Part shown: positions 8,010-64,000 of the stretch, piece after piece
Position numbering within the stretch: position 1 is the first letter of the stretch
How the letters are laid out: each line of letters opens with the position of its first letter
Source: a virus
IMG/VR virus record: IMGVR_UViG_3300020233_000057
Coordinates: 49,069-113,068 of that record
Reading direction: 5' to 3' (one strand)
DNA: 64,000 nucleotides
Notes under the pieces: generated by a model
Databases searched by the model: none
Seen by the model: only the letters and a program-made list of their open reading frames with translations
Told to the model about the DNA's origin: nothing
Position numbers and translations under genes: made by a program

Positions 8010-8610
8010 GTTTTGCCGTGACGCCGCCCCCACCTGTACCGTTGCCGCTACTGTCGCTGCTGTCCCCTGTAGCCCGCGGGTGCCCTCAGGTGGCCTCTGT
8101 AGGTGGCTCTAGGCGGCCACTGTCCCCAAGGGTAGGGTTGGGTTTGTTGCCTCTACGGGTGCCGTCGGTAGTTTCATGCGGGGACAGGGGCCGTCTGCCA
8201 TATGTCTAGCGTGCACCGTATGACATATGAGACATAGCGGCCAGGGGCATCTAACACGCTTTGCCTAGTGGCAGGGCAGCACCCGGGCGGCATGTAACCG
8301 TGTAGCCACGCTACAGTTTGGACGCCCTTCGCGCTACCGTTGGGACACGCGGCTACGCCTCTGCCGCTCCGCTCTAGCGCTTCCATGTGACGCGTCCCCC
8401 CTTGTTAGATACGTTAGATCTCATTAGATACTGTATCTATAATCAGGTACAAACATATGATTAGATACAGAGTCTCTAATCAGCACAAATCACCTATACC
8501 ATCAAATCCGATCATCCGATCCGACGGTCCGACCCGATGGTCCGATCCGACCGAACACGTGTTCCAGTACCCCCCGGGGTCCGATGGTTCGGGTGGATGG
8601 TCGGACCCGA
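8010..8610. other. Gene-free region with repeats
   Basis: No convincing gene. 8010-8390 is GC-rich with no frame backed by a start signal. 8400-8480 has repeats of TTAGATAC and the inverted repeat GATTAGA-N9-TCTAATC (8459-8481). 8510-8620 has alternating CCGATGGTCCGA-type repeats in both orientations around the operator at 8553. Confidence 0.5.
8553..8564. promoter_or_regulatory. Operator GAACACGTGTTC
   Basis: Fully palindromic GAAC-N4-GTTC inside the repeat block. Confidence 0.55.
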
Positions 8611-8614
8611 TGGT

Positions 8615-8851
8615 CTATAGGCACCCCCATTCGGGTATGATGCAAGCCGAACCATCGGCGCCGCTACTGTTACAGTAGGTGCTGCCATCCTCATATAGGG
8701 TACAGGATGGTTCGCTTGGAATGGTTCGCTCTACAGGTATGTCGGTAGGGTGGCTACCTTTCCCGGCATCGTACCCCGTTCTCCATGTGAGCACTAGGGC
8801 CACTAGGGCGAGTAGAGCTACCATGGCGTATGTCTGTCTCCATGTGCGCAT
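8615..8851 (-). CDS. Membrane-anchored small cysteine protein, 78 aa (paralogue)
   Basis: ATG at 8851 behind GAGGT. Membrane helix at residues 8-25, then a short outside part with CTLYEDGSTYCNS and ACIIPEWGCL. Paralogue of 4173-4391; both are followed by the same repeat and operator block and preceded by the same promoter type, so the whole unit is duplicated. Confidence 0.7.
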   Translation of the reverse strand: MRTWRQTYAMVALLALVALVLTWRTGYDAGKGSHPTDIPVERTIPSEPSCTLYEDGSTYCNSSGADGSACIIPEWGCL

Positions 8852-8885
8852 AGGCGGACCTCTCGTTAGGTGATGTATCCCTACT

Positions 8886-8914
8886 AGTGTCGCGCGTCAT
8901 GGGGGGTGAGTCAA
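8886..8914 (-). promoter_or_regulatory. Early-family promoter, minus strand
   Basis: TTGACT, 17-nt spacer ending GACGCGC, GACACT. Same layout as 4427-4455. Confidence 0.7.
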
Positions 8915-9025
8915 GACCCAAAACCCGGTTCTGCCAGATGGCACTGGATGACGTGGCGGGGGCGAACGTTTGTACGTGGGTCGTTCGGCCGTGCCCGATA
9001 GGGTCTTTCGGCCTACCGTTTAGGC

Positions 9026-9054
9026 TTGACATGCTAGCCGCTATCTGGCAGACT
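9026..9054 (+). promoter_or_regulatory. Early-family promoter
   Basis: TTGACA, 17-nt spacer, CAGACT, then TTGTCAGCA. Preceded by the repeated block GGGTCTTTCGGCC (9001). Confidence 0.7.
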
Positions 9055-9088
9055 TGTCTTGTCAGCACAACTCTAGGGAGGTGAGAGA

Positions 9089-9271
9089 ATGCACGATACC
9101 ACCGAGATTGCTCGGGCCGACGTGGAGTACGCGGAGGGCCTAGACTTCTCTGAGCTTGAGGGGATCATGTCGGAAGGCGTGGCCGAGACCGCCGACGGCT
9201 GCATCGTAGAGCCCGACGGTAGGTGCCCGCATGGGCACCGTTCGCCGCTTCTGCTTCTGGGATACATCTAG
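9089..9271 (+). CDS. Small acidic protein with CPHGHRS motif, 60 aa
   Basis: ATG 6 nt after GGGAGGTGAG. An acidic helical N-terminus is followed by IVEPDGRCPHGHRSPLLLLGYI; the CPHGHxSxLLxLG ending is common in small actinobacteriophage proteins and looks like a partial zinc knuckle. Function unknown. Strong terminator follows. Confidence 0.8.
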   Translation: MHDTTEIARADVEYAEGLDFSELEGIMSEGVAETADGCIVEPDGRCPHGHRSPLLLLGYI

Positions 9272-9277
9272 ACGCTA

Positions 9278-9305
9278 GTGAGGTCGACCTAACGGTCGGC
9301 CTCAC
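9278..9305 (+). terminator. Hairpin after gene 9089-9271
   Basis: GTGAGGTCGACC pairs with GGTCGGCCTCAC (12 bp with one wobble, 4-nt loop). Confidence 0.75.
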
Positions 9306-9354
9306 ACGCGCGTCACCCACAAGGACTGGAAGGCCCCCACAGTTGCGGTGACTG

Positions 9355-9366
9355 GAACACACGTTC
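9355..9366. promoter_or_regulatory. Operator GAACACACGTTC
   Basis: GAAC-N4-GTTC 38 bp upstream of the promoter at 9405. Confidence 0.55.
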
Positions 9367-9404
9367 GCTCGCGGCGGTTAGCGCGTGTTTGGTAAACAAA
9401 ACAC

Positions 9405-9433
9405 TTGACGGCCGCGCGATAATGTGAGAGGCT
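9405..9433 (+). promoter_or_regulatory. Early-family promoter without a gene behind it
   Basis: TTGACG, spacer GCCGCGCGATAATGTGA, GAGGCT, then TTTCCTTGTAAACGAA. No convincing coding frame follows for about 360 nt. Confidence 0.7.
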
Positions 9434-9439
9434 TTCCTT

Positions 9440-9720
9440 GTAAACGAATCGGGACCCCCGAGGTGCCATCAAGCACGCCATATGAAACTACCCCTGACGG
9501 CTAACGATCACGTCCTACCTGGGAATGGTAGGCGATCCCTGAATGAAGGGTAGTGGATGGATGTGCCAAGTAGGTGAGCGAACGGGGAGAACGGGCTAGA
9601 CGGTAGCCGAGAGTAACCGCGGAGGTGCACCGATGCGGGGATGGTAGGCGACCCGATGGCCCGGCCCGATTCGGTACACCTGTACTGGATCGCTCACCCC
9701 CGGGCCACCCCCGATAGGGT
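9440..9720 (+). ncRNA. Candidate structured non-coding RNA
   Basis: Transcribed stretch between the promoter at 9405 and the next promoter at 9731, without any frame longer than about 30 codons that has a start signal. It holds two copies of GGRATGGTAGGCGAYCC (9512-9528 and 9636-9652) in otherwise different context, and several short complementary segments. No known RNA family recognised. Confidence 0.4.
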
Positions 9721-9730
9721 CTTTCGGCCC

Positions 9731-9759
9731 TTACCAAGCGCGCGATAGTGTGAGATACT
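9731..9759 (+). promoter_or_regulatory. Early-family promoter
   Basis: Weak -35 TTACCA, 17-nt spacer AGCGCGCGATAGTGTGA, GATACT, then TTGTCAGCAA. Preceded by GGGTCTTTCGGCCC. Confidence 0.7.
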
Positions 9760-9797
9760 TTCCTTGTCAGCAACCCTAGACCTCAGGAGGTCAAGAT

Positions 9798-9947
9798 ATG
9801 GACATAGAGAGGCAACGGGAGACGGTGCGAAGTGTTGTGGAGCGGTTGAGGGGGCAGATGTACCACCATCCAAAGGTACAGTATTTGCGTATCGACCGGC
9901 GAGAGGCCGAGGCACTTGTTGCAGTCAACCGGGAGGTCAAGACATGA
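9798..9947 (+). CDS. Charged helical hypothetical protein, 49 aa
   Basis: ATG 7 nt after AGGAGG. Mostly helical, rich in Arg/Glu (MDIERQRETVRSVVERLRG). First of three genes overlapping by ATGA/GTGA (9798-10266). Unknown function. Confidence 0.7.
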   Translation: MDIERQRETVRSVVERLRGQMYHHPKVQYLRIDRREAEALVAVNREVKT

Positions 9948-10108
9948 CGCGTAAGCACTACGAAAGGCTAGCCGCTATCGTGGCCAGCATACCTGGACAG
10001 GGTATCGGTCCCGAAAAGCTGGCTCACGTACTCGCGGACTTCTGTGAAGCAGACAGTAGCCGATTCAACCGCGAGCTGTTCATAGCCGCATGTGAGGTGC
10101 AACCGTGA
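9944..10108 (+). CDS. Hypothetical phage protein, 54 aa
   Basis: ATGA overlap. Starts MTRKHYERLAAIVASIPG, a pattern seen in many small actinobacteriophage proteins of unknown role, ending in NRELFIAACEVQP. Both parts look helical. Middle gene of the cluster. Confidence 0.75.
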   Translation: MTRKHYERLAAIVASIPGQGIGPEKLAHVLADFCEADSSRFNRELFIAACEVQP

Positions 10109-10266
10109 GCGAAACCTACAGGAGCCTCACCACCGGGCGCCCTATCGTCTTTGACGACGATAACGCGTATGACGCGTGGAAGGATGAGGAGATAGACCTG
10201 TACGGCACCCCGTGGCGCGAGCACCGCAACCCATGGCTGGAGGATGAGGACCGCTACAACCTTTAG
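10105..10266 (+). CDS. Acidic hypothetical protein, 53 aa
   Basis: GTG in a GTGA overlap. Very acidic with several aromatic residues (DDDNAYDAWKDEEIDLYG, EDEDRYNL). Could be a DNA mimic or a binding partner of the basic proteins nearby; unproven. Perfect 16-bp terminator follows. Confidence 0.65.
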   Translation: MSETYRSLTTGRPIVFDDDNAYDAWKDEEIDLYGTPWREHRNPWLEDEDRYNL

Positions 10267-10270
10267 CGAT

Positions 10271-10308
10271 GGCGGTAGGGTCAGACCATACAGTCTGACC
10301 CTACCGCC
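10271..10308 (+). terminator. Perfect 16-bp hairpin
   Basis: GGCGGTAGGGTCAGAC pairs with GTCTGACCCTACCGCC, 6-nt loop. Confidence 0.8.
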
Positions 10309-10353
10309 GCGCCCACCCCCGGGAGACTGGAAGGCCATTACCGTTGGCGCGAC

Positions 10354-10570
10354 GATGCCCCGGTGCAGATCACCGGGGCATCTCGGGCACGTTACGCAGC
10401 TTCCCTGCGCCACTAACCGGTGGAAGGGTCCGATTCTGTCCGCCTCAGACTTAGGCGGTCCGTGTTCTGTCGGTCCACGGCGCCGGGTACGTTACGCAGC
10501 TTCCCTGCGCCCCTTACCTGGGGAGGGGGCCTGTTCACACTAGGCCAAGGTGTATCTCTGCTACAAGGAA
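10354..10570 (-). ncRNA. Candidate minus-strand non-coding RNA with two identical hairpins
   Basis: Behind the minus promoter at 10571-10599. Two copies of GGCGCAGGGAAGCTGCGTAAC (minus sense) sit 100 nt apart (plus 10393-10413 and 10493-10513); each folds as CGCAG-GGAAG-CTGCG. Between them GACAGAA occurs twice around a CCGCCT...AGGCGG stem. The end is the stem GATGCCCCGGT/ACCGGGGCATC (10354-10382). No coding frame with a start signal. Confidence 0.45.
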
Positions 10571-10599
10571 AGTATCTCACACGGGGAGCTACAACACCA
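10571..10599 (-). promoter_or_regulatory. Early-family -10 region, minus strand
   Basis: Minus-strand GTGTGA-GATACT-TTCCTTGTAGCA matches the early family at the -10 and start region; the -35 (TGGTGT) is poor. Confidence 0.45.
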
Positions 10600-10736
10600 T
10601 AGGCCATTCGGCCTAATGCCATGCGAACCGTCTACATGAACCATCTAAACCCCCCTGGACTGGATGCCCGTCGCCGCGGTGACGGGAACGTTTACATGTG
10701 GGCCGTTCGGCCGTGCCCTGTAGGGTCTTTCGGCCC

Positions 10737-10765
10737 ATGACAGGCGCGCGATAGTGTGAGATACT
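10737..10765 (+). promoter_or_regulatory. Early-family promoter
   Basis: ATGACA, spacer GGCGCGCGATAGTGTGA, GATACT, TTGTCAGCAA. Again preceded by GGGTCTTTCGGCCC. Confidence 0.75.
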
Positions 10766-10801
10766 TTCCTTGTCAGCAACCCTAGACCTCAGGAGGTCTT
10801 G

Positions 10802-10996
10802 ATGCCCGCTTACCCCGCGACAGATGATTACCCCTTCGAGGTGGCATTTACCGCCGAGTGCTACCACTGCGAGAAGGAGACCTACGACGAGGCCGCCGCC
10901 GTCAACTACAAGGGCCACAAGGACACTCTCGCTACTACGTGCCAGCACTGCGGCGAGGCCCTCACCTACGACCCGAGCGACATATTCGGGCCTTGA
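10802..10996 (+). CDS. Small zinc-ribbon protein, 64 aa
   Basis: ATG 5 nt after AGGAGGTC. CYHC (residues 20-23) and CQHC (47-50) form a two-CxxC zinc ribbon, length about 30 residues between pairs. Likely a zinc-binding adaptor or DNA/RNA binder. Stands alone between promoter and a GC-rich hairpin (11009-11030). Confidence 0.75.
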   Translation: MPAYPATDDYPFEVAFTAECYHCEKETYDEAAAVNYKGHKDTLATTCQHCGEALTYDPSDIFGP

Positions 10997-11062
10997 CAGA
11001 GCAGTAGGGGCGGGCCTCACGGCCCACCCTACAGCCGCGCCCACACCGCCCCGGGGCGACTG

Positions 11063-11074
11063 GAACACGTGTTC
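11063..11074. promoter_or_regulatory. Operator GAACACGTGTTC
   Basis: Perfect palindrome 38 bp upstream of the promoter of the CCA-adding gene. Confidence 0.6.
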
Positions 11075-11112
11075 GCTCGCGGCTGTTAGCGCGTGTTTGG
11101 TAAACAAAACCC

Positions 11113-11141
11113 TTGACGGACGCGCGATAGTGCTGTATACT
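11113..11141 (+). promoter_or_regulatory. Early-family promoter, strongest match
   Basis: TTGACG, spacer GACGCGCGATAGTGCTG, TATACT, then CTGTCAGCAA. Drives cca and the phosphatase gene. Confidence 0.85.
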
Positions 11142-11175
11142 TTTTCTGTCAGCAACCAACGGCCCGGAGGGGATC

Positions 11176-11889
11176 ATGGCAGACATCAAAATGTTTGAGG
11201 TAGGGGGGTGCGTACGCGATGACCTCATGGGTATCCCTACAAAGGATATCGACTTTGCCGTTATCGCTCCCTCGTTCCAAGCCATGCGCTCACACCTTGT
11301 CGCCGAGGGTTTCGTGTTGCACGTGGAACATCCTGAGTTTGTCACTATCCGCGCAGGGGTGCCGAAAGGGCACGTGTTGCGGGAACGTACTCGGGATGCA
11401 GATTTTGTGCTGGCGCGTAAAGATTCCGCCGGTAGCGACGGTCGCCGCCCTGATTTTGTGGAGCCCGGCACGCTAGCCGATGATCTGGCACGCCGAGATT
11501 TCACCGTGAACGCTATGGCTCGCGACCCTCTCACGGGGGACCTTATCGACCCTCACGGCGGTCAAGACGACCTCCGTAACGGGGTGCTCAGGTTCGTTGG
11601 TAATCCTTCGGAGCGCATAGCAGAGGACGGGCTACGCGTGCTACGCGGGTTGCGCTTCTGCATAACCAAGGGCCTAGAGCCTACGGTCGATACTTGGGAT
11701 GCGCTATGCAGCCGTGATGCGGCCCGCATGCTGGGGCTAGTGAGTGCAGAACGTGTACGCGATGAGGTCGAGCGTATGATGGTTCACAACACGTTAGGTA
11801 CACTTGACCTAATGGCCGACATTCCGGCTCTGACGCGTTTGCATATCTTTCGTGATGGGCTCAGGTTGAGCGCTACGCTAGCCCAATGA
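11176..11889 (+). CDS. cca: CCA-adding enzyme / tRNA nucleotidyltransferase
   Basis: ATG 6 nt after GGAGGGG. Class II nucleotidyltransferase signatures: GGCVRDDLMG and DIDFAV (catalytic Asp pair, residues 10-28), LARRDFTVNAMA (115-126), and SERIAEDGLRVLRGLRF (150-166), the template-binding helix. Adds or repairs the 3' CCA tail of tRNAs. At 237 aa it is shorter than cellular enzymes (about 400+), lacking the body and tail domains. The phage carries many tRNA genes, most without an encoded CCA, so this enzyme would mature or repair them. Coupled to the next gene by ATGA. Confidence 0.85.
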   Translation: MADIKMFEVGGCVRDDLMGIPTKDIDFAVIAPSFQAMRSHLVAEGFVLHVEHPEFVTIRAGVPKGHVLRERTRDADFVLARKDSAGSDGRRPDFVEPGTLADDLARRDFTVNAMARDPLTGDLIDPHGGQDDLRNGVLRFVGNPSERIAEDGLRVLRGLRFCITKGLEPTVDTWDALCSRDAARMLGLVSAERVRDEVERMMVHNTLGTLDLMADIPALTRLHIFRDGLRLSATLAQ

Positions 11890-12362
11890 GACCCCCTGCC
11901 GTTATTTTCGATCGTGATGGCACTCTTGCTAGTGTCGCGTACATTGCGCCGCTTGACCGCTCGGGTAGCGCGTGGCGGCAATACAACGCAGCTCTACCCT
12001 TTGATGCCCCTGTACCTGTAGTGGCGGCTCTGTTGCGTTCTATCCGGCCCGGGGTGGTGCGCATAATGACAAGCGGCCGTGCGGCGGGAGACCATGTAGG
12101 GGACACTCACCGCCGCTTATTGATGACCGCGTGGCTACGTAAGCACGCCCTACCTATTGACGTGCTCATCATGCGTAAAGGTGGTGACCAACGTAGAGAC
12201 TCGGTGGTGAAAGAAGAGATATACCGTGAGCAGATAGCCCCGTTCTATGATGTCCGCTACGTTGTTGACGACCGGCAACAAGTGGTAGATATGTGGCGGG
12301 AGATAGGGCTACCTGTCTTGCAGGTGGTCGACCCTAGGATACTTCCACCTATCGCACGGTAG
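11886..12362 (+). CDS. HAD-family polynucleotide 3'-phosphatase
   Basis: Overlaps cca by ATGA. HAD motif I FDRDGTLA (residues 8-15), motif II TSGRAAG, motif III region KGGDQRRDSVVKEEIY and motif IV VVDDRQQVVDMW match the phosphatase domain of T4 Pnkp (PseT), which removes 2',3'-cyclic or 3' phosphates from cut RNA ends. The kinase half is absent here; a separate kinase is at 44441. Joint operon with cca points to tRNA repair. Confident on fold, fair on substrate. Confidence 0.75.
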   Translation: MRPPAVIFDRDGTLASVAYIAPLDRSGSAWRQYNAALPFDAPVPVVAALLRSIRPGVVRIMTSGRAAGDHVGDTHRRLLMTAWLRKHALPIDVLIMRKGGDQRRDSVVKEEIYREQIAPFYDVRYVVDDRQQVVDMWREIGLPVLQVVDPRILPPIAR

Positions 12363-12454
12363 GCGCCGCCGGTAGGACTGGAAGGCGTGGGGTGCTGTGC
12401 CGCTGTGGTGCTGTGCGCGGCGTGCTTGTACGCTTGCGAGTTGTTGCGCAGTGG

Positions 12455-12895
12455 CTAGGACCACCCTATGTCAAAGTTGTTGAACTTGGCCTCTGTCGCT
12501 AGTGCCACTAGGCGCCCCATAACGTTCTCGTAGTAGCCCTCAGGTACACCGCACTCGACTATGGTCGCATGCCCGTAGGTGTCCTCCGTGGGGGCTGCGC
12601 CGGTGTCGTCGCGCCCTACGTTTGCCACTAGTGCGCGGCCTAGCATGTCGTCTGCTGCGACGGTGCCGCAGTAGTCGAAAGGGATACCGAGGCGCTCTAG
12701 CACCATCTCTGCGTTACTGTTGGACAGGTTGACGCGTAGAGCGCACTTGTGGCATGCCTCTGTGGCCTCATGCATGTGGTCACAGTAGAAGTAGAGCTGT
12801 TGCTCATCGCACCCCCCGGGGATGGGACAGGTGTGATTGCAGAAGGTTTCGGAGGCGCGGGGGCCTTCCGTGTGGAATCCGAACGTTATGGACAT
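12455..12895 (-). CDS. Cysteine-rich hypothetical protein, 146 aa
   Basis: ATG at 12895 chosen for AGGAG 5 nt upstream. Cys/His-rich N-terminal half (CNHTCPIPGGC, CDHMHEATEACHKC) probably binds zinc; the rest is mixed. It sits on the opposite strand to its neighbours and has its own TATAGT promoter. Family not recognised. Confidence 0.7.
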   Translation of the reverse strand: MSITFGFHTEGPRASETFCNHTCPIPGGCDEQQLYFYCDHMHEATEACHKCALRVNLSNSNAEMVLERLGIPFDYCGTVAADDMLGRALVANVGRDDTGAAPTEDTYGHATIVECGVPEGYYENVMGRLVALATEAKFNNFDIGWS

Positions 12896-18076: not shown

Positions 18077-18520
18077 ATGGATGAGGTACGGCAGCCGTGG
18101 GTCACGAAATTCATGTCAAAAATCTGTACAGGCCCCAACTGTTGGGAATGGGGTGGATACACAAACCAATCAGGGTACGGACGCGCCACAGGACCTGACG
18201 GTAAAAAACAGTACGCCCACAGACTCTCCTACCAACTGTTCATAGGACCCATACCTGACAAACTCACCATCGACCACCTGTGCCGCAACCCCAGATGCGT
18301 CAACCCCCGACATTTGGAAGCCGTCACCACCCGCGAAAACATACAACGAGGCAGCAAAGCACAGCAAACACACTGCAAACACGGACACAGCCTCCATGAC
18401 GCCTACACAGATAAACGCTCCAACGGCACCACATCCCGCAAATGCAGACAATGCCATAAACAACGTGTACAAAAAAACCGTCTCAAAAATGCTGCCAAAC
18501 ACAAGAAACAACAAACATGA
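18077..18520 (+). CDS. HNH homing endonuclease
   Basis: ATG 6 nt after TAGACT: leaderless pattern. HNH core YAHRLSYQLF ... LTIDHLCRNPRCVNPRHLEAVT (residues 55-95) with catalytic His in IDH and the structural NPRH, as in HNH_3 phage enzymes; a second zinc motif C-x3-H ... CRQCHKQ at residues 110-135. Nicks or cuts DNA and usually spreads itself. A/C-rich codon use differs from the G/T-rich genes before it, suggesting separate origin. Overlaps the methyltransferase by ATGA. Confidence 0.85.
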   Translation: MDEVRQPWVTKFMSKICTGPNCWEWGGYTNQSGYGRATGPDGKKQYAHRLSYQLFIGPIPDKLTIDHLCRNPRCVNPRHLEAVTTRENIQRGSKAQQTHCKHGHSLHDAYTDKRSNGTTSRKCRQCHKQRVQKNRLKNAAKHKKQQT

Positions 18521-19923
18521 CAGCCGCCACGTCACTTTTGAAAGCCGACGCAGTCCAAATCCCTTTGGCCGACGCCACCGTGGACTTAATTGTGACATCG
18601 CCTCCGTATTTCGCTTTACGTTCCTACACAGACGGCGGAGAGCACTACGACGGGCAGATCGGCTCAGAAGCAACACCGGACGCGTTCCTACAAGCCCTAT
18701 GGACCGTCACCACAGAATGCTGGCGGGTACTCAAACCAACCGGCAACCTTTGGATAAATTTGGGCGACAAATACGCAGGCAGCAACGCAACAAACAACAA
18801 CGGCACCGGCTCCTCAACTCTAGTGGGAACCCCATCGGTCCGTGACAGAAACCAAACCCGCACACAACACATCACCGCCCCCATGCGCCCCAAATCCCTC
18901 ATGGGACTCCCGTGGCGATACGCCATCGGATGCATCGACGGCGCGGCCGCACCCGACGGGCAGCAATGGATTCTACGAGCCGAAATAGTGTGGGGAAAAC
19001 GCAACGGTCTACCCGAACCTGTCACCGACCGGGTGCGACGCAGCCACGAACAATGGTTCCACCTCACAAAAGAGGGGCGATACTACAGTGCCATAGACGA
19101 AATCCGTGAACCCTACACGTCACCCCCGGCACAAGCACAAAAATCGTCTGCAACACAAGCACACCAAACCTCCAATCCCTGCATCGCCATCGAACACGAC
19201 CTGACACACAACCCTCTCGGCAAACTTCCCGGCTCCGTATGGTCAATCGCCAGCCAACCACTACACGTCCCCCAACATTTAGGCGTCGACCACTACGCAG
19301 CGTTCCCCCAAGAACTCCCCCACCGCATCATCAAAGGCTGGTCCCCAAGCGGGATCTGCACCGCCTGCGGGGAAGGGCGACGCCCCCTGGTACAAAAGGA
19401 CCGCAGCAACGTCAACTACGACATCAGTGAGCAACGTGCAAACGAACGCGTCGCCGCCACAGGCGGAACTGTTACAGGCGGCACAAAACGGTCCACACTC
19501 GGACACCAAACAGAAACCACCAACGTCGGCACCCAATGCGACTGCTGGCACACAGGGCAACCCAACCAGCCCCCAACCCGCCCAGCAGTCATCCTCGACC
19601 CATTCGCAGGAACAGGCACAACCATCATGGTAGCCAACGCACTAGGGCGACACGGAATAGGACTAGACCTCTCCACAGACTACATCAAACTAGCCAAATG
19701 GCGTACAGAAGAATCCGGGCACTACCAAAAACATGCACAAAACGCTCAACAGCGACAGTGGAAAGAGCATCGGGTAACCATAATCAAACAACGAGTCGAA
19801 GCTTTAGAAGAATACATTCGACAAAACGGTCTCACAGTCCCACAACTCCCCCACGACCCCGGACCCCGAACCAAGAAACGATCCCGCCCCCAACTCCCTT
19901 TACAGCATAAACTAGAAATATGA
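18517..19923 (+). CDS. DNA methyltransferase (N4/N6, beta-type)
   Basis: Motif IV TSPPYF at residues 28-33 near the N-terminus and motif I DPFAGTGTT near residue 365 mark a permuted (beta-class) amino-methyltransferase; GIGLDLSTDYIKLAKWR follows. Residues 100-300 hold the target recognition part, with CxxC pairs (CTAC, CDC). Likely protects phage DNA from restriction. ATGA-coupled to the HNH gene, so the pair may have moved together. Recognition site unknown. Confidence 0.85.
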   Translation: MTAATSLLKADAVQIPLADATVDLIVTSPPYFALRSYTDGGEHYDGQIGSEATPDAFLQALWTVTTECWRVLKPTGNLWINLGDKYAGSNATNNNGTGSSTLVGTPSVRDRNQTRTQHITAPMRPKSLMGLPWRYAIGCIDGAAAPDGQQWILRAEIVWGKRNGLPEPVTDRVRRSHEQWFHLTKEGRYYSAIDEIREPYTSPPAQAQKSSATQAHQTSNPCIAIEHDLTHNPLGKLPGSVWSIASQPLHVPQHLGVDHYAAFPQELPHRIIKGWSPSGICTACGEGRRPLVQKDRSNVNYDISEQRANERVAATGGTVTGGTKRSTLGHQTETTNVGTQCDCWHTGQPNQPPTRPAVILDPFAGTGTTIMVANALGRHGIGLDLSTDYIKLAKWRTEESGHYQKHAQNAQQRQWKEHRVTIIKQRVEALEEYIRQNGLTVPQLPHDPGPRTKKRSRPQLPLQHKLEI

Positions 19924-42473: not shown

Positions 42474-42889
42474 GGGGCTGAAACAGGATTCGACAATGAG
42501 CCTGTGAGCGCCGAACGCAACCCGAGTTGCTCAGACTCGTGAAACGGGGCACCAAAATACACGCCGAGGACAACACCGAGGCTCCTGAATCTGACGCCCT
42601 TTGGGCAGAGTTTGATGCTTGCGAAAGCGTCCTCGTTTGATAGACGAGCAGGACGGGGTCTGACTGAACCTTGCTATCCAATCAGTCTGACAACACGGAC
42701 AGACGAGTTGACATTCAGGAAAGACTGAATGCCGGGACAGGCATACTGTTCACGACTGCGGGGAAAGACCCGCTAGTTGCGACAGGGGAAACCCCATTGC
42801 ACTGACGCTTCGGAAAGACGAAGGATGGTTGTACATCGGACAGCGTAATCTCTCATTGGACGGGGGTTCGATACCCCCCGGCTCCACCA
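42474..42889 (+). ncRNA. ssrA: tmRNA (ssrA), 416 nt
   Basis: Starts GGGGCTGAAACAGGATTCGAC and ends GGTTCGATACCCCCCGGCTCCACCA (shown in part), with encoded CCA: the tRNA-like domain of tmRNA. The tag frame runs 42563-42640: it opens AEDNTEAPES, has SDALWAEFDA in the middle and closes CESVLV before TGATAG, 25 codons. The usual LAA end is missing; a VLV/ALV-type end is known to me from mycobacteriophage tmRNA. Rescues stalled ribosomes by adding the tag. Several pseudoknot-like stems follow. Own promoter upstream. Confidence 0.9.
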
Positions 42890-53766: not shown

Positions 53767-54948
53767 ATGTCAAAACCAACGAAGGCAGCAGAAGGTGTCC
53801 TCGCCTGGGGGGTTGAGGGCATCGACCATAACACATGTGCCCAAGCTGCACAGACAGCCCTGATGCCGTTCGTACAGGGGCACATAGCTTTGATGCCTGA
53901 CGCACACTTTGGGCTTGGGTCCACTATCGGGTCAGTTATCCCTACCCGTGGGGCAATCATCCCAGCGGCTATCGGGGTGGACATCGGATGTGGAATGTGT
54001 GCAGCAAAGCTAAACATTAGCGGCGATGAACTTCCCGATGACCTTGGGGGGCTTCACTCAAGGATTGAGCAGAGTATCCCCGCGGGGGTTGGGAAGGGTC
54101 ATGACGGGAAAGCGCCGTCGACACGGTTCCACAAGTTTTGGACTGAGACGAATTCGTTCACAGAGTTCGACGACAGGCAGACATGTAAGGTATTCGATCA
54201 GTTCGGGTCACTCGGCTCAGGCAACCATTTCGTAGAGGTTTGCATAGACGAGGGTGGCGGAGTTTGGGTAGTTTTGCATTCGGGTAGCCGCGGAATTGGG
54301 AATCAGTTGGCTCGTTTCCATATTGATCGTGCTAAGCATCTGATGCAGGAGTGGTTCATCAGCATCCCTAACCCTGATCTTGCATACCTTGTGGAGGGCT
54401 CTTTAGAGTTCGATGCTTACATATCTGACATGCTGTGGGCACAGGATTATGCCCTGTTGAGTCGTGAAGAGATGATGGACGCAGTGCTGGGGTGCATTGC
54501 AGAAGAACTTGGGGTCAGCGTGGGTTTGCAGGAGAGCCGAATCAATTGCCACCACAACTATACGGTCCGGGAACAGCATCACGGAAAGTCTGTCTGGTTA
54601 ACGCGTAAAGGGGCTATCCGTGCACGGTCGGGGGATCTTGGGGTCATCCCAGGGTCGATGGGCACATCTACATATGTTGTCCGTGGTTTAGGCAATGATG
54701 CTGCCTATCACTCATGTAGCCATGGGGCGGGCCGGAAAATGTCGCGCAGGCAAGCGAAAAAGATGTTTGATGCAGATAGTTTGACTGCCGCCATGGGGGG
54801 TCGTTCGTGGGACCGCGGGCGGGCTGCCAAACTGGTAGATGAGCACCCTGGGGCGTACAAGGACATTGCGACTGTTATGGACGCCCAATCTGACCTGGTT
54901 GATGTTGTCCATACCCTAGAGGCCGTCCTCAACTACAAGGGGACTTGA
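53767..54948 (+). CDS. rtcB: RNA ligase RtcB
   Basis: ATG 6 nt after TAGGTT (GTCA-11 element at 53740). Metal-binding GVDIGCGMCAAK (residues 58-69, Cys), GSLGSGNHFVEV, LHSGSRGIGNQ, and the GMP-accepting SHGAGRKMSRRQAKK match RtcB. Joins 2',3'-cyclic phosphate or 3'-phosphate to 5'-OH ends in one step with GTP. 393 aa, usual bacterial size. Second, independent RNA-sealing route beside kinase/ligase. Confidence 0.9.
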   Translation: MSKPTKAAEGVLAWGVEGIDHNTCAQAAQTALMPFVQGHIALMPDAHFGLGSTIGSVIPTRGAIIPAAIGVDIGCGMCAAKLNISGDELPDDLGGLHSRIEQSIPAGVGKGHDGKAPSTRFHKFWTETNSFTEFDDRQTCKVFDQFGSLGSGNHFVEVCIDEGGGVWVVLHSGSRGIGNQLARFHIDRAKHLMQEWFISIPNPDLAYLVEGSLEFDAYISDMLWAQDYALLSREEMMDAVLGCIAEELGVSVGLQESRINCHHNYTVREQHHGKSVWLTRKGAIRARSGDLGVIPGSMGTSTYVVRGLGNDAAYHSCSHGAGRKMSRRQAKKMFDADSLTAAMGGRSWDRGRAAKLVDEHPGAYKDIATVMDAQSDLVDVVHTLEAVLNYKGT

Positions 54949-56390: not shown

Positions 56391-56464
56391 CGGGTGTCGG
56401 TCTCAAGGAGGGACGCCGCGTTTGGGGCGCGGACATCAGGTGAGTTCGATTCTCACACACCCGA
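56391..56464 (+). tRNA. tRNA-Pro (TGG)
   Basis: Acceptor CGGGTGT/ACACCCG, stem CCGCG/CGCGG with loop TTTGGGG. Confidence 0.85.
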
Positions 56465-56576
56465 CTGATAATAGAATAGATTGTTTCGTGGGCATCTATC
56501 CCCAGCAGTTTAGTAACCGGGGTGTGGGGTGTCTACGGGAAAGTGTATTGACGATTCGTTCTTTTATCTGTCGTGA

Positions 56577-60434: not shown

Positions 60435-60947
60435 ATGCGTAGTGCACAAGAGCGATACAGGCAACGGGAAATCTCGAAGTATCTGGCAGCCCACGGGGAA
60501 CCCCCAGAGTGCGAGTGTGGGTGCAGCGAACCTGTCCGTTTCAACGGAAATGGTAAACCTAGACGGTACGTGTTGCACCATCAACCAAAACATGGGCTCC
60601 TAGACGGCAGGCGACGTAAGAACAAAGACCTGATCCCTCTTAACGTTTTCAGGAATGCTATGTGGGATCTCAAACATAGAACAGGTAAAACGTGGGTTCA
60701 GATTGCAGAAGACGGGGGGCTGTCTCTAACACACCTGCACTCACTGTTGTACAGCAAAACTAAGAAGAACGTTGGGAAGCGGTGGACAACCGACTTTATG
60801 CGACGTTTAGCAGGTCTGCCTGCCCCAGCATCAACCCATCAGAAAAGGATGCTGCGTGAAGGAAACGTTGCGATGCGCGAAACGGAAAGTTGGTACATGA
60901 CAGAAACATTTGAGGGCAACAGGGGACAGGAGGTGGGGGCGAAGTGA
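60435..60947 (+). CDS. Zinc finger and helix-turn-helix protein, 170 aa
   Basis: ATG 8 nt after TAGTTT (GTCA-11 element). CECGCSEPVRFNGNGKPRRYVLHHQPKHG (positions 27-55) is a Cys/His zinc site; TWVQIAEDGGLSLTHLHSLL a helix-turn-helix. Likely DNA-binding. Overlaps the methyltransferase start by GTGA. Confidence 0.7.
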   Translation: MRSAQERYRQREISKYLAAHGEPPECECGCSEPVRFNGNGKPRRYVLHHQPKHGLLDGRRRKNKDLIPLNVFRNAMWDLKHRTGKTWVQIAEDGGLSLTHLHSLLYSKTKKNVGKRWTTDFMRRLAGLPAPASTHQKRMLREGNVAMRETESWYMTETFEGNRGQEVGAK

Positions 60948-63070
60948 GCATCGAGGTTTTGCAAGGAAACTCGGTTGATGAGATTCCATTAGACGATAAG
61001 TCTGTGGATTGCATTGTGACTTCGCCCCCATAACCGTTTTGGGGACTTAGACGCTATGGAAACTCTCCCGACGAATTGGGGGTTGAGTCTCTACCGGAGT
61101 ATGTAGAGAAGTGGAAGCGTGTAGCAGATGAATGCTGGCGTGTCCTGAAAACAGATGGTCTTATGTGGCTAAATGTGGGAGATTCAGCATGTGTCGATGA
61201 AGAAACCGAAATTTTAACCAAGCGCGGGTGGCTTGGAGTTGATGAAGTTGTCGTTGGCGATGAAGCTGTAACCCTTAACCCAGAAACCCGCGAGTCTGAG
61301 TGGGGTCCTATCGAGGATTTACACGTATATGAAGCCATGGAGCGCCCAATGCTTCGCTTACAAGGTGTAAGAGGGCACTCGTCAATGACGACATTGAATC
61401 ATCGTTGGCTTGTTGAGCGTCGGACGACCAGGAGCGGTATCGGAACATCACGACCAGGAGAGCAGAACGGGTCGGCGAAGTTGTCAGAGATGGATGTGGC
61501 GACCTTTAAGGGTGAATATGACAAAGGTTCCCGGCAGGTCGATCTGGCAGACAAGTACGGGGTAACGCAGACGACAATTTCCAAGATTGTCACATCCCGC
61601 ACATGGGCACAGCAGCGTCAGGCCGAGAAAGCCCCGCTTCGGGATGCACATGGTTTGCTGGTTCGGGAATGGGTTGCGGATACGGTTACTTCTGATGCGC
61701 TGCTCTCCGTCGAGTGCCGGGTCCCGGTCTGTGCCGCCATGTCGGACACTGCTGTAGTGAAGAAGCACAATGATGAGTTAGTAGAGTTGGTGGCATGGTA
61801 TTGGACGGAGGGGAATGATCGGAGTAACTATGGTGGCGCTCGTGGCATCTGGATAACTCAGTCGCCCCGAGTGTACGACGAATATTGCAGCCGCATTCGT
61901 TCATGCATGGCTCGCTTCTTTGGTCCCCCCGTTGAAAGACTGAAGGGTCGCAGCAGAGGCGGGGCAGAAGTGTGTCCGCAGTGGCGAGAGGAACGACGCG
62001 AAGATGGAGCGACTGTTTGGAAGTTGAACGGTGCAGCGGCAGATAAAATCCGACAGCACGCCCCAAGCAAAGTGGTTTGCATGGACTTTTTGTTGAGCCT
62101 CACTCAACAGCAGCTTGACTTGTTCGTCGATGTCAGCATGATGGCTGATGGAACCCTCACTAGCCAGGGCGGTGCACTTGTTCAGTCAAACCAGTCAGAC
62201 AACTCGAAGCAGGCTAGGTGCCGTGCTGAGGCGTTTCAAATCGCTGCTCTTCTTTCTGGACGCTACGCCACCCTCAATAAGATCCGTCGTTCCGCTGATC
62301 CTCGCCCGGACCGCAATGGAATTGCCCACGACGGATGGTCAGTAACACTTGGATCGAAGAAGTTCTTCAAACCTTCACGATGTGATGCTGAAGTCGTTTC
62401 GCATCACGGGGTTGTTTGGTGTCCGTCTACTCCAAATGGGTCCTGGCTCGCTCGACGAAACGGGACACCTTTTTTCACAGGTAACTCCGGTTCAGGTGGT
62501 TCAGGAGGCGATTACAACAAAGGGGGCAGTAAGGACGGTAAGTCTAGGTGGCGTCAGGGGAAATCTGGTTATCAGAAGATGACGTGGTGCAATGTCCCAC
62601 CTAAACTTGTTGAGGCAATGATAGGGCCTCCTGTAGGCGATCAGCCGTGGTGGGTGACCGCCATGTTTGGTGACGATGCGAGATTCTGTGACGACATTTG
62701 GCCTCACCGCCGATGGTTGTTGCGGCAGACTATAGTTTGGGACAAGGGGGTTGAACGCCCAGAGTCTGTTTATCACGCCCGCCGCCCTCGTCCGCAGCAC
62801 GAGTTCATTTACATGCTGGCTAGGGACCGTAGCCACCGTTTCTACGCCGACAATTTGGAGCAGACGGGGACAGTTTGGCGTTTTCCTCCTAACAGGTCGG
62901 GGGATAAGGGGTTGGCCCCGTTCCCTGACGAACTTGCCGTTCGTTGCATCATGCCCTCTACTGTTGCGGGGGACGTGGTCTTAGATCCGTTTGCAGGGAG
63001 TATGACTGTCCCTAAATGTGCGGATGAGCTGGGGAGGGTGGGAATTGGAGTTGACTTGTATTCAGATTGA
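60944..63070 (+). pseudogene. DNA methyltransferase with intein and in-frame TAA in motif IV
   Basis: GTG at 60944. The frame reads VSIEVLQGNSVDEIPLDD, CIVTSPP, then TAA (61031-61033), then PFWGLRRYG in the same frame on to 63070. The stop replaces the Tyr of SPPY, one base from TAC. After removing the intein (61190-62485), WLNVGDSA joins SGSGGSGGDY, and DPFAGSMTVPKCADELGR (motif I) closes the protein. Either a disabled gene, a read-through, or a restart at TTG 61076. N4/N6 DNA methyltransferase by motifs. Confidence 0.75.
61190..62485 (+). mobile_element. Intein (432 aa) in methyltransferase
   Basis: Starts CVDEETEILTKRGW, block B MTTLNHRWL, endonuclease segments LVELVAWYWTEGND and VDVSMMADGTL, ends TPFFTGN before Ser+1. 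Contains an inserted helix-turn-helix-like part (KYGVTQTTISKIVTS, about residues 120-134). Related to the portal intein at 30519. Confidence 0.85.
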
Positions 63071-63294: not shown

Positions 63295-63767
63295 GTATCG
63301 AGGATGATGATGTGTGGAGTGTTGTCAACTGGGAGACAGGCAGCGCGTGGGTGACCCAAACGAGTGCAGCACAAGCGCGACAGTGGATCGTCGGTCGTGG
63401 AGGACGCGACGACTTGCGTGTCGCCCGTTGGGTGGACGGCCAGTGGATTGAACCCGAACCTGAGCCTGAGCCTGAACTGGTTAGGTCCCCGTGGGTCATC
63501 ATCGACCGGCACGACCGCCAACGCTACTTCGGTGACACCGGGGCCGAGGCGGCCGTGCGAGCCCACAGTTTGGATGCGCAATTTCCTAACGATGCCCCTC
63601 ATCGGGTGTACAGCCTGGTCGAATACGCGCCGCACACGGTGCAGGTCGTGTTGCCACGGGGTGTGGCGAAGGAGATGGCTTTGAAAGTTGGGCTTGCCGG
63701 GTTCCCCGACTCTCAGGCCGTGTGGGCGGCGTGTCGTGACGCACTCAACAAGGGGATAATAACGTGA
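63291..63767 (+). CDS. Hypothetical protein, 158 aa
   Basis: GTGA overlap. Contains a (EP)5 linker (residues 54-63) between two small domains; the second has VIIDRHDRQRYFGDTGAEAAVRAHS. Unknown. Confidence 0.65.
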   Translation: MSIEDDDVWSVVNWETGSAWVTQTSAAQARQWIVGRGGRDDLRVARWVDGQWIEPEPEPEPELVRSPWVIIDRHDRQRYFGDTGAEAAVRAHSLDAQFPNDAPHRVYSLVEYAPHTVQVVLPRGVAKEMALKVGLAGFPDSQAVWAACRDALNKGIIT

Positions 63768-64000
63768 GCGACAATGAGAATCTAGATGTGGCCTACGGGC
63801 CGCAGCATGACGCTGTGCTCGTGGTGGTCGCACGAGCGGAGGCATTGACTCCCGATGAGGCGGACGCATTGGCCGCAGCCAGGGACGCAGTCGGGGACGC
63901 AGCCTGGGCCGCAGCCGGGGACGCAGCCTGGGCCGCAGCCAGGGCCGCGCTCAGGGACGCAGCCTGGGACGCGCTCAGGGACGCAGCCTGGGCCGCAGCC
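63764..64000 (+). CDS. Ala/Asp/Trp-rich repeat protein (partial)
   Basis: GTGA overlap. After residue 40 the protein is built from DAAWAAA/DALRDAAW-type repeats, as in many phage and bacterial repeat proteins with unknown role. The frame runs off the window end. Confidence 0.7.
   Translation, partial: MSDNENLDVAYGPQHDAVLVVVARAEALTPDEADALAAARDAVGDAAWAAAGDAAWAAARAALRDAAWDALRDAAWAAA

Follow-up and report, generated by a model that had tools for sequence, protein, structure and literature searches.

Stop-bearing inserts recur at motif IV of phage DNA methyltransferases: candidate natural stop-hops

In synthetic E. coli constructs, ribosomes can hop over a stop codon placed between matched codons, so that nine nucleotides are read in frame as one amino acid (Weiss et al. 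1987, as summarised in PMC5009743), while no natural in-frame stop-hop was known to the Atkins 2016 review (PMC5009743). T4 gene 60, with its 50-nt bypass and the homing endonuclease MobA (Bonocora 2011; PMC5009743), has a stop abutting the take-off codon and a matched landing codon beyond it. The gene 60 insert lies early in the gene, downstream of an endonuclease gene, and is accompanied by a conserved take-off hairpin and a nascent-peptide signal; it is thought to protect its target gene from the adjoining endonuclease (PMC5009743). Translation also removes short inserts, the byps, from many mitochondrial genes of Magnusiomyces capitatus, where imperfect matches between take-off and landing codons are allowed (PMC5009743). 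Finally, ShiLan-type hidden HNH elements place an out-of-frame endonuclease within a methyltransferase gene (PMC11855218). A full-text search on bypassing combined with phage methyltransferases brought up nothing closer.

The phage methyltransferase genes described here share part of this anatomy. As in the synthetic stop-hops, a stop stands between codons, which in most 6-nt cases may count as matched, and nine nucleotides would yield one amino acid in frame, but those constructs were designed, whereas the phage sites are natural, recurrent candidates. As in gene 60, the stop abuts the proposed take-off codon, the insert lies early in the gene and some carriers have an endonuclease gene upstream, with L095, L096 and L100 mirroring the T4 mobA–gene 60 layout in which the endonuclease is directly upstream. 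In contrast to gene 60, the inserts span 3–6 nt rather than 50 and keep the same frame, and the carriers have neither such a shared hairpin nor an identified peptide signal; by analogy, the inserts would work like gene 60 bypassing while lacking its shared take-off hairpin. Compared with the byps, which are mitochondrial, longer and spread over many genes, they sit in a single motif of a single family of phage enzymes. The ShiLan arrangement is matched by the out-of-frame endonuclease of L224 and, in antisense, by those of L097 and L222, although no motif IV stop insert has been reported for ShiLan-type elements.

The window, that is, the whole stretch of 64,000 nucleotides analysed, forms the 64-kb end of a virus record 113,068 bases long. 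Its frame 60944-63070 opens with GTG, 10 nt downstream of AGGAGG (60928-60933), and matches the Pfam family PF01555 (N6_N4_Mtase, 1.8e-20); with this domain and with motif IV preceding motif I, its product is classed by sequence as a beta-class (N4/N6) DNA methyltransferase. The frame holds a single internal stop, TAA at 61031-61033, directly 3' of the TSPP of motif IV, and the 678 codons 3' of it are open. The features of the locus are as follows.

60435..60947, + strand: upstream ORF of 170 aa with a Cys/His cluster and an HTH-like segment, sharing its last 4 nt with the start of the methyltransferase
60944..61030, + strand: N-terminal exon-like part, GTG to the TSPP of motif IV, 29 codons, preceded by the ribosome-binding site and aligning with L002 and L008
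61028..61030, + strand: CCA, second Pro of SPP by alignment position, proposed take-off codon
61031..61036, + strand: 6-nt insert TAA CCG, which the canonical relatives lack (by alignment; analogous inserts in L092, L094-L097, L100 and L221-L224), an ochre stop followed by the proposed landing codon CCG
61037..61042, + strand: TTT TGG, proposed resume codon (Phe, at the aromatic position of motif IV) and Trp of WGLR, by alignment with TSPPYWGLR
61034..61189, + strand: extein of the methyltransferase from insert to intein, by alignment
61190..62485, + strand: intein of 432 aa, Cys1 to Asn432 with +1 Ser, by full-length alignment to other inteins
62486..63070, + strand: C-terminal extein with the SAM-binding motif I DPFAGSMT and a TGA end (PF01555)
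56391..56465, + strand: phage tRNA-Pro(UGG) found by ARAGORN, which could pair with both CCA and CCG, a candidate hopping tRNA

A search for closer relatives of the window gene returned only two, L008 and L002, the latter with 56% identity across the extein; they lie on viral contigs and read TSPP-Y-WGLR. No near match was found in isolated phages. Against these two, the window DNA, ACT TCG CCC CCA [TAA CCG] TTT TGG GGA CTT, reads TSPP-[TAA CCG]-F-WGLR, with two extra codons and a Phe at the aromatic position (SPPF also occurs in a related protein of L088), and motif IV is contiguous only when 6 nt are skipped. The original prediction had read the stop as the Tyr codon, one base from TAC, and had taken a resequenced TAC as decisive against it. 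Alignment with the relatives rules out such a plain Tyr-to-stop nonsense change: 6 nt are inserted, the Tyr column holds Phe (TTT), and a TAC there would read SPPYPFWGLR, two of whose residues are additional and unmatched in any relative, so that back-mutation to TAC would not restore motif IV. The same prediction was right that the frame carries one in-frame stop at motif IV with the rest open, that a 432-aa intein with good splice residues is intact, and that a gene with only this lesion does not look long dead.

The intein runs from the Cys codon at 61190-61192 to the Asn codon at 62483-62485, followed by the +1 Ser, and is alignable along its full length to inteins in the portal of Gordonia phage Hail2Pitt and in gp135 of Mycobacterium phage Pinkcreek. 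The termini are the same in all three, and the host proteins are unrelated. Pfam alone gave only a weak HTH match on the window intein, and LAGLIDADG-like blocks were recognised in it by eye. Judged by its Cys1, terminal Asn, nucleophilic +1 residue and full-length homology, the element is a real, intact intein.

Comparison with relatives, which the original prediction had proposed, revealed stop-bearing inserts at the same spot in unrelated phage methyltransferases. Viral contigs were scanned for TSPP-TAN, six further bases and TGG-GG-(C/T)T. This 6-extra-base pattern gave nine stretches, of which eight were real methyltransferases, all eight with an in-frame stop inside the insert; the corresponding 3-extra-base pattern gave four stretches, all real methyltransferases and all with TAG. 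The new carriers comprise ten unrelated genes on 12 contigs (11 genes with the window), two phages carrying an identical insert in two assemblies each.

L092 and L098 (one phage): insert TAA CTT, before Tyr
L094: insert TAG CCA, before Tyr
L095: insert TAG TCG, before Tyr
L096: insert TAG CTG, before Tyr
L097 and L099 (one phage): TAT [TAG TTC] TGG
L100: TAT TGG [TAG TGG] GGA
L221-L224: TAY-TAG-TGG, 3-nt insert TAG

Deleting the insert restores S-P-P-(Y/F)-W-G-L-R in every carrier. All seven genes with 6-nt inserts, the window included, carry TAA or TAG; five of these matched the TAN-fixed pattern, one being the window itself, which was found independently, and as that stop-first pattern demanded TAN, the stop was half built in for those cases. 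In the six genes whose stop the pattern did not prescribe, it was TAG every time. The chance of a stop per random inserted codon is 3/64, giving about 5e-6 for four of four 3-nt cases and, by hand arithmetic with 1/2 for each TAN-fixed 6-nt case and ~0.09 for each remaining one, about 1e-9 for stops throughout both classes. Same-site stop-bearing inserts in 11 genes are more than chance. At least 120 stretches in the viral contigs had canonical spacing, and the scans of these contigs returned no sense-only 3- or 6-nt insert at the motif IV site, one stretch with a Tyr to TAA/TAG substitution that proved to be noise (genuine cases, 0), and no further genuine case of TSPPY-TAG with 1 to 31 unspecified bases behind it, by which longer bypass inserts of up to 31 nt after PPY-TAG were rejected. 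Apart from this last pattern, the scans covered in-frame 3- and 6-nt inserts and the substitution of Tyr by TAA or TAG. The 3-nt pattern was absent from 397 genomes of one bacterial phylum.

A quick tree was built from 121 methyltransferases, and ten carriers could be placed in it. By parsimony they require nine changes, of which well-supported branches force at least five; the branch of L097 is long and its placement unsure, and the window gene pairs with the insert-free L002. On this phylogeny, the insert is seen to have arisen repeatedly in phage methyltransferases. The window also holds a second, intact N4/N6 methyltransferase (18517-19923, SPPYFALRSY), which the tree places nearest to L095, one of the carriers of a stop insert (55% identity).

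The recurrence of inserts that always bring a stop suggests that ribosomes jump over the insert, rather than that the genes are broken. For the window, it is considered about an even call that a stop-bearing micro-insert interrupts motif IV in the DNA but not in the protein, a natural stop-hop, like a gene 60 bypass in miniature, skipping an insert that may protect a homing-endonuclease target. The broader proposal, that 3- and 6-nt stop inserts have repeatedly entered these genes, are removed by in-frame stop-hopping and guard against homing endonucleases, which would make them the first stop-hops known from nature and the smallest of all known bypassed elements, is advanced tentatively and with less than even confidence. 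The putative hop, whatever its efficiency, would begin once a ribosome has reached Pro-Pro and UAA occupies its A site; from there, the peptidyl-tRNA-Pro would leave CCA and re-pair with CCG six bases on, and decoding would restart at UUU to give TSPP-F-WGLR with no added residue, nine nucleotides thereby yielding one amino acid. A Pro codon before a stop is poorly released (Hayes 2002 and Pierson 2016, as cited in PMC7246954). Pro-Pro before the stop, a poor release-factor substrate, would favour the jump; the stop follows Pro-Pro in five of the seven 6-nt cases.

Codon anatomy is consistent with this mechanism. The proposed take-off codon abuts the stop in the window and in all ten other genes, and among the recognisable genes of the contig, TAA 61031 is the sole in-frame stop whose two flanking codons match fully. 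Take-off and landing codons in the 6-nt class are CCT/CTT, CCA/CCA, CCG/TCG, CCA/CTG, CCA/CCG (window), TAT/TTC and TGG/TGG; with G.U allowed, the same tRNA could re-pair in six of the seven, TAT/TTC failing (p ~1e-5 against random codons). However, the inserts probably started as one- or two-codon tandem duplications, which also yield alike flanking codons, making re-pairing a matter of consistency more than proof, and the signal is weak when only changes from an exact duplicate are counted. In the 3-nt class, a shift from UAY to UAG would leave two base pairs intact and mismatch the third base. A hairpin is predicted at the window stop (z -2.54), corresponding to the near-palindrome CCCCATAACCGTTTTGGGG at 61022-61046; it is partly a by-product of the PP..WG codons, and the canonical L008 has one too. 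No mRNA hairpin common to the carriers was found, these being if anything less structured (p 0.047), and a take-off hairpin was rejected as a general feature.

The main rival to stop-hopping, unlikely but serious, is that the genes were recently killed: each insert would be an inactivating mutation too young for more damage, and no protein would be made. Such deaths could stem from escape from restriction of methylated DNA or from an endonuclease cut-and-repair scar, and methyltransferase gain and loss has been argued to be frequent in phages (PMC9957025). L096 is indeed broken further on, being truncated ~70 codons 3' of the insert; the window motif I, DPFAGSMT rather than the usual DPFxGSGT, has an unusual GSG to GSM change (G in 98/105 controls); and the window phage encodes other, intact methyltransferases. 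In the ten carriers that include the window and leave out the shortened L096, 4133 codons after the stop are open with no second stop, which, using the measured share of stop-creating changes, puts mean neutral divergence since any death below 0.56%. This bounds age only, yet all ten open genes would need less than ~0.6% neutral divergence. Random inactivation should, moreover, also have produced substitutions and sense inserts, and neither Tyr-to-stop changes nor sense-only 3/6-nt inserts were seen.

Decay is not apparent in most carriers. At 59 conserved columns, violations were within the control range in L223 (0/58), L221 (0/28), L094 (1/49), L092 (2/58) and L224 (2/58), and in the upper tenth of controls in L222 (5/58), L100 (4/39) and L095 (8/58). 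The window gene has 14/55, compared with 13/58 and 13/57 in its canonical kin L002 and L008, while the score of L097 is not judgeable because its endonuclease insert disturbs the alignment. Were stop-hopping refuted, the presence of a stop in every one of these independent inserts at a single motif would still need explaining.

Programmed readthrough by a near-cognate or host suppressor tRNA, which would lengthen motif IV by one or two residues and yield low amounts of active enzyme, is improbable. Although the stop is in frame, the downstream frame is open and the poor termination after Pro cited from PMC7246954 (Hayes 2002, Pierson 2016) would assist it, no sampled methyltransferase has sense residues at the insert positions, the lack of sense-only 3/6-nt inserts in the viral contigs serving as an indirect test of whether a residue is tolerated there. 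Where the pattern left it free, the stop was always TAG, not the leaky UGA, and neighbouring genes in the window end normally with all three stops. An ochre-suppressor tRNA (anticodon TTA) was sought in the contig with ARAGORN at normal and relaxed thresholds and with Rfam, and none was found; with ordinary stop usage, this led to rejection of a suppressor tRNA or genome-wide TAA/TAG recoding. The earlier parse, which had likewise seen no TTA anticodon, was slightly high in counting 36 tRNAs, since ARAGORN gives 29 and a tmRNA (42474-42889) in the window and none in the contig's remaining 49 kb. The tRNA cluster also encloses an RtcB RNA ligase gene (53767-54948).

Methyltransferases are classic phase-variable genes, and most inserts resemble two-copy tandem repeats (for example, CCATAG-CCATAC in L094), as expected if a short imperfect repeat were gained and lost by slippage to switch the enzyme off and on. 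This DNA-level switch is nonetheless very improbable, as two diverged copies of 3-6 nt form no hypermutable tract and losing the right copy would often leave the stop. An assembly or sequencing artefact is the least credible explanation: every carrier is a metagenome-derived viral contig, and among the ~100 listed matches from isolated phages and plasmids with the motif spacing was canonical throughout, with no insert, but in-frame stop inserts at one motif in 11 genes correspond to no error mode of short-read assembly, and the identical insert in two samples for two phages argues against assembly error.

If stop-hopping does keep the protein intact, the likely reason for the inserts, as proposed for T4 gene 60, is that they would break a homing-endonuclease target within a conserved stretch. 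Members of one LAGLIDADG family lie up to ~650 bp upstream of the insert in L100, L095 and L096 (antisense in L096), the family being phrog_5046 in L100 and L095 and assigned by sequence in L096. L222 has an HNH gene upstream (9.5e-12) and an antisense LAGLIDADG gene inside the methyltransferase (3e-17), L097 an antisense LAGLIDADG gene inside it (7e-12) and L224 an out-of-frame HNH gene inside it (9e-12). Using one regular expression for both sets, an endonuclease was found in or beside five of ten new carriers versus two of 120 controls (p 1.7e-5); the expression was composed after two cases were known, and it missed L224. In the window, the intein is the only clear endonuclease candidate, the upstream ORF (60435-60947) having no family match in Pfam or PHROGs; from its features, the latter is possibly a mobile-element protein.

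These 11 natural candidates, each short and testable, would settle whether natural stop-hops exist. If they are confirmed, bypassing would no longer look peculiar to T4, phage genes having answered homing-endonuclease cutting with it repeatedly, and single-stop 'pseudogenes' in phage genomes would need re-reading.

The internal endonuclease genes span, in bases downstream of motif IV, ~99-984 in L097, ~423-1137 in L222 and ~511-1111 in L224, and the methyltransferase frame stays open through all three. In isolates, the methyltransferase-linked matches to the shared LAGLIDADG family are C5-type, have no SPPYW motif and hide the endonuclease out of frame; they have no bearing on the prediction that this family flags methyltransferases with a stop insert among isolates. 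C5 methyltransferase genes with an out-of-frame LAGLIDADG and an open methylase frame occur in L236-L240 and L243 (Gordonia phages Bibwit, Keitabear, Lennon, Inspectinfecti and Hans, and Mycobacterium phage DotProduct), where the annotations differ between a join, a gene of its own and a single long gene. Intein-like (Hint) regions also occur in L003, at residues ~55-126 and ~451-527 of a 1500-aa helicase (ResIII, Helicase_C; 8342-12844, - strand); a further ORF of L003 (13743-15359, - strand), adjoining a ParB-like gene, combines PF01555 methyltransferase fragments with a PLP-enzyme domain (PALP). Downstream of the window methyltransferase, an Ala/Asp/Trp-rich repeat ORF with DAAWAAARDA-like units (63764-64000) runs off the contig end.
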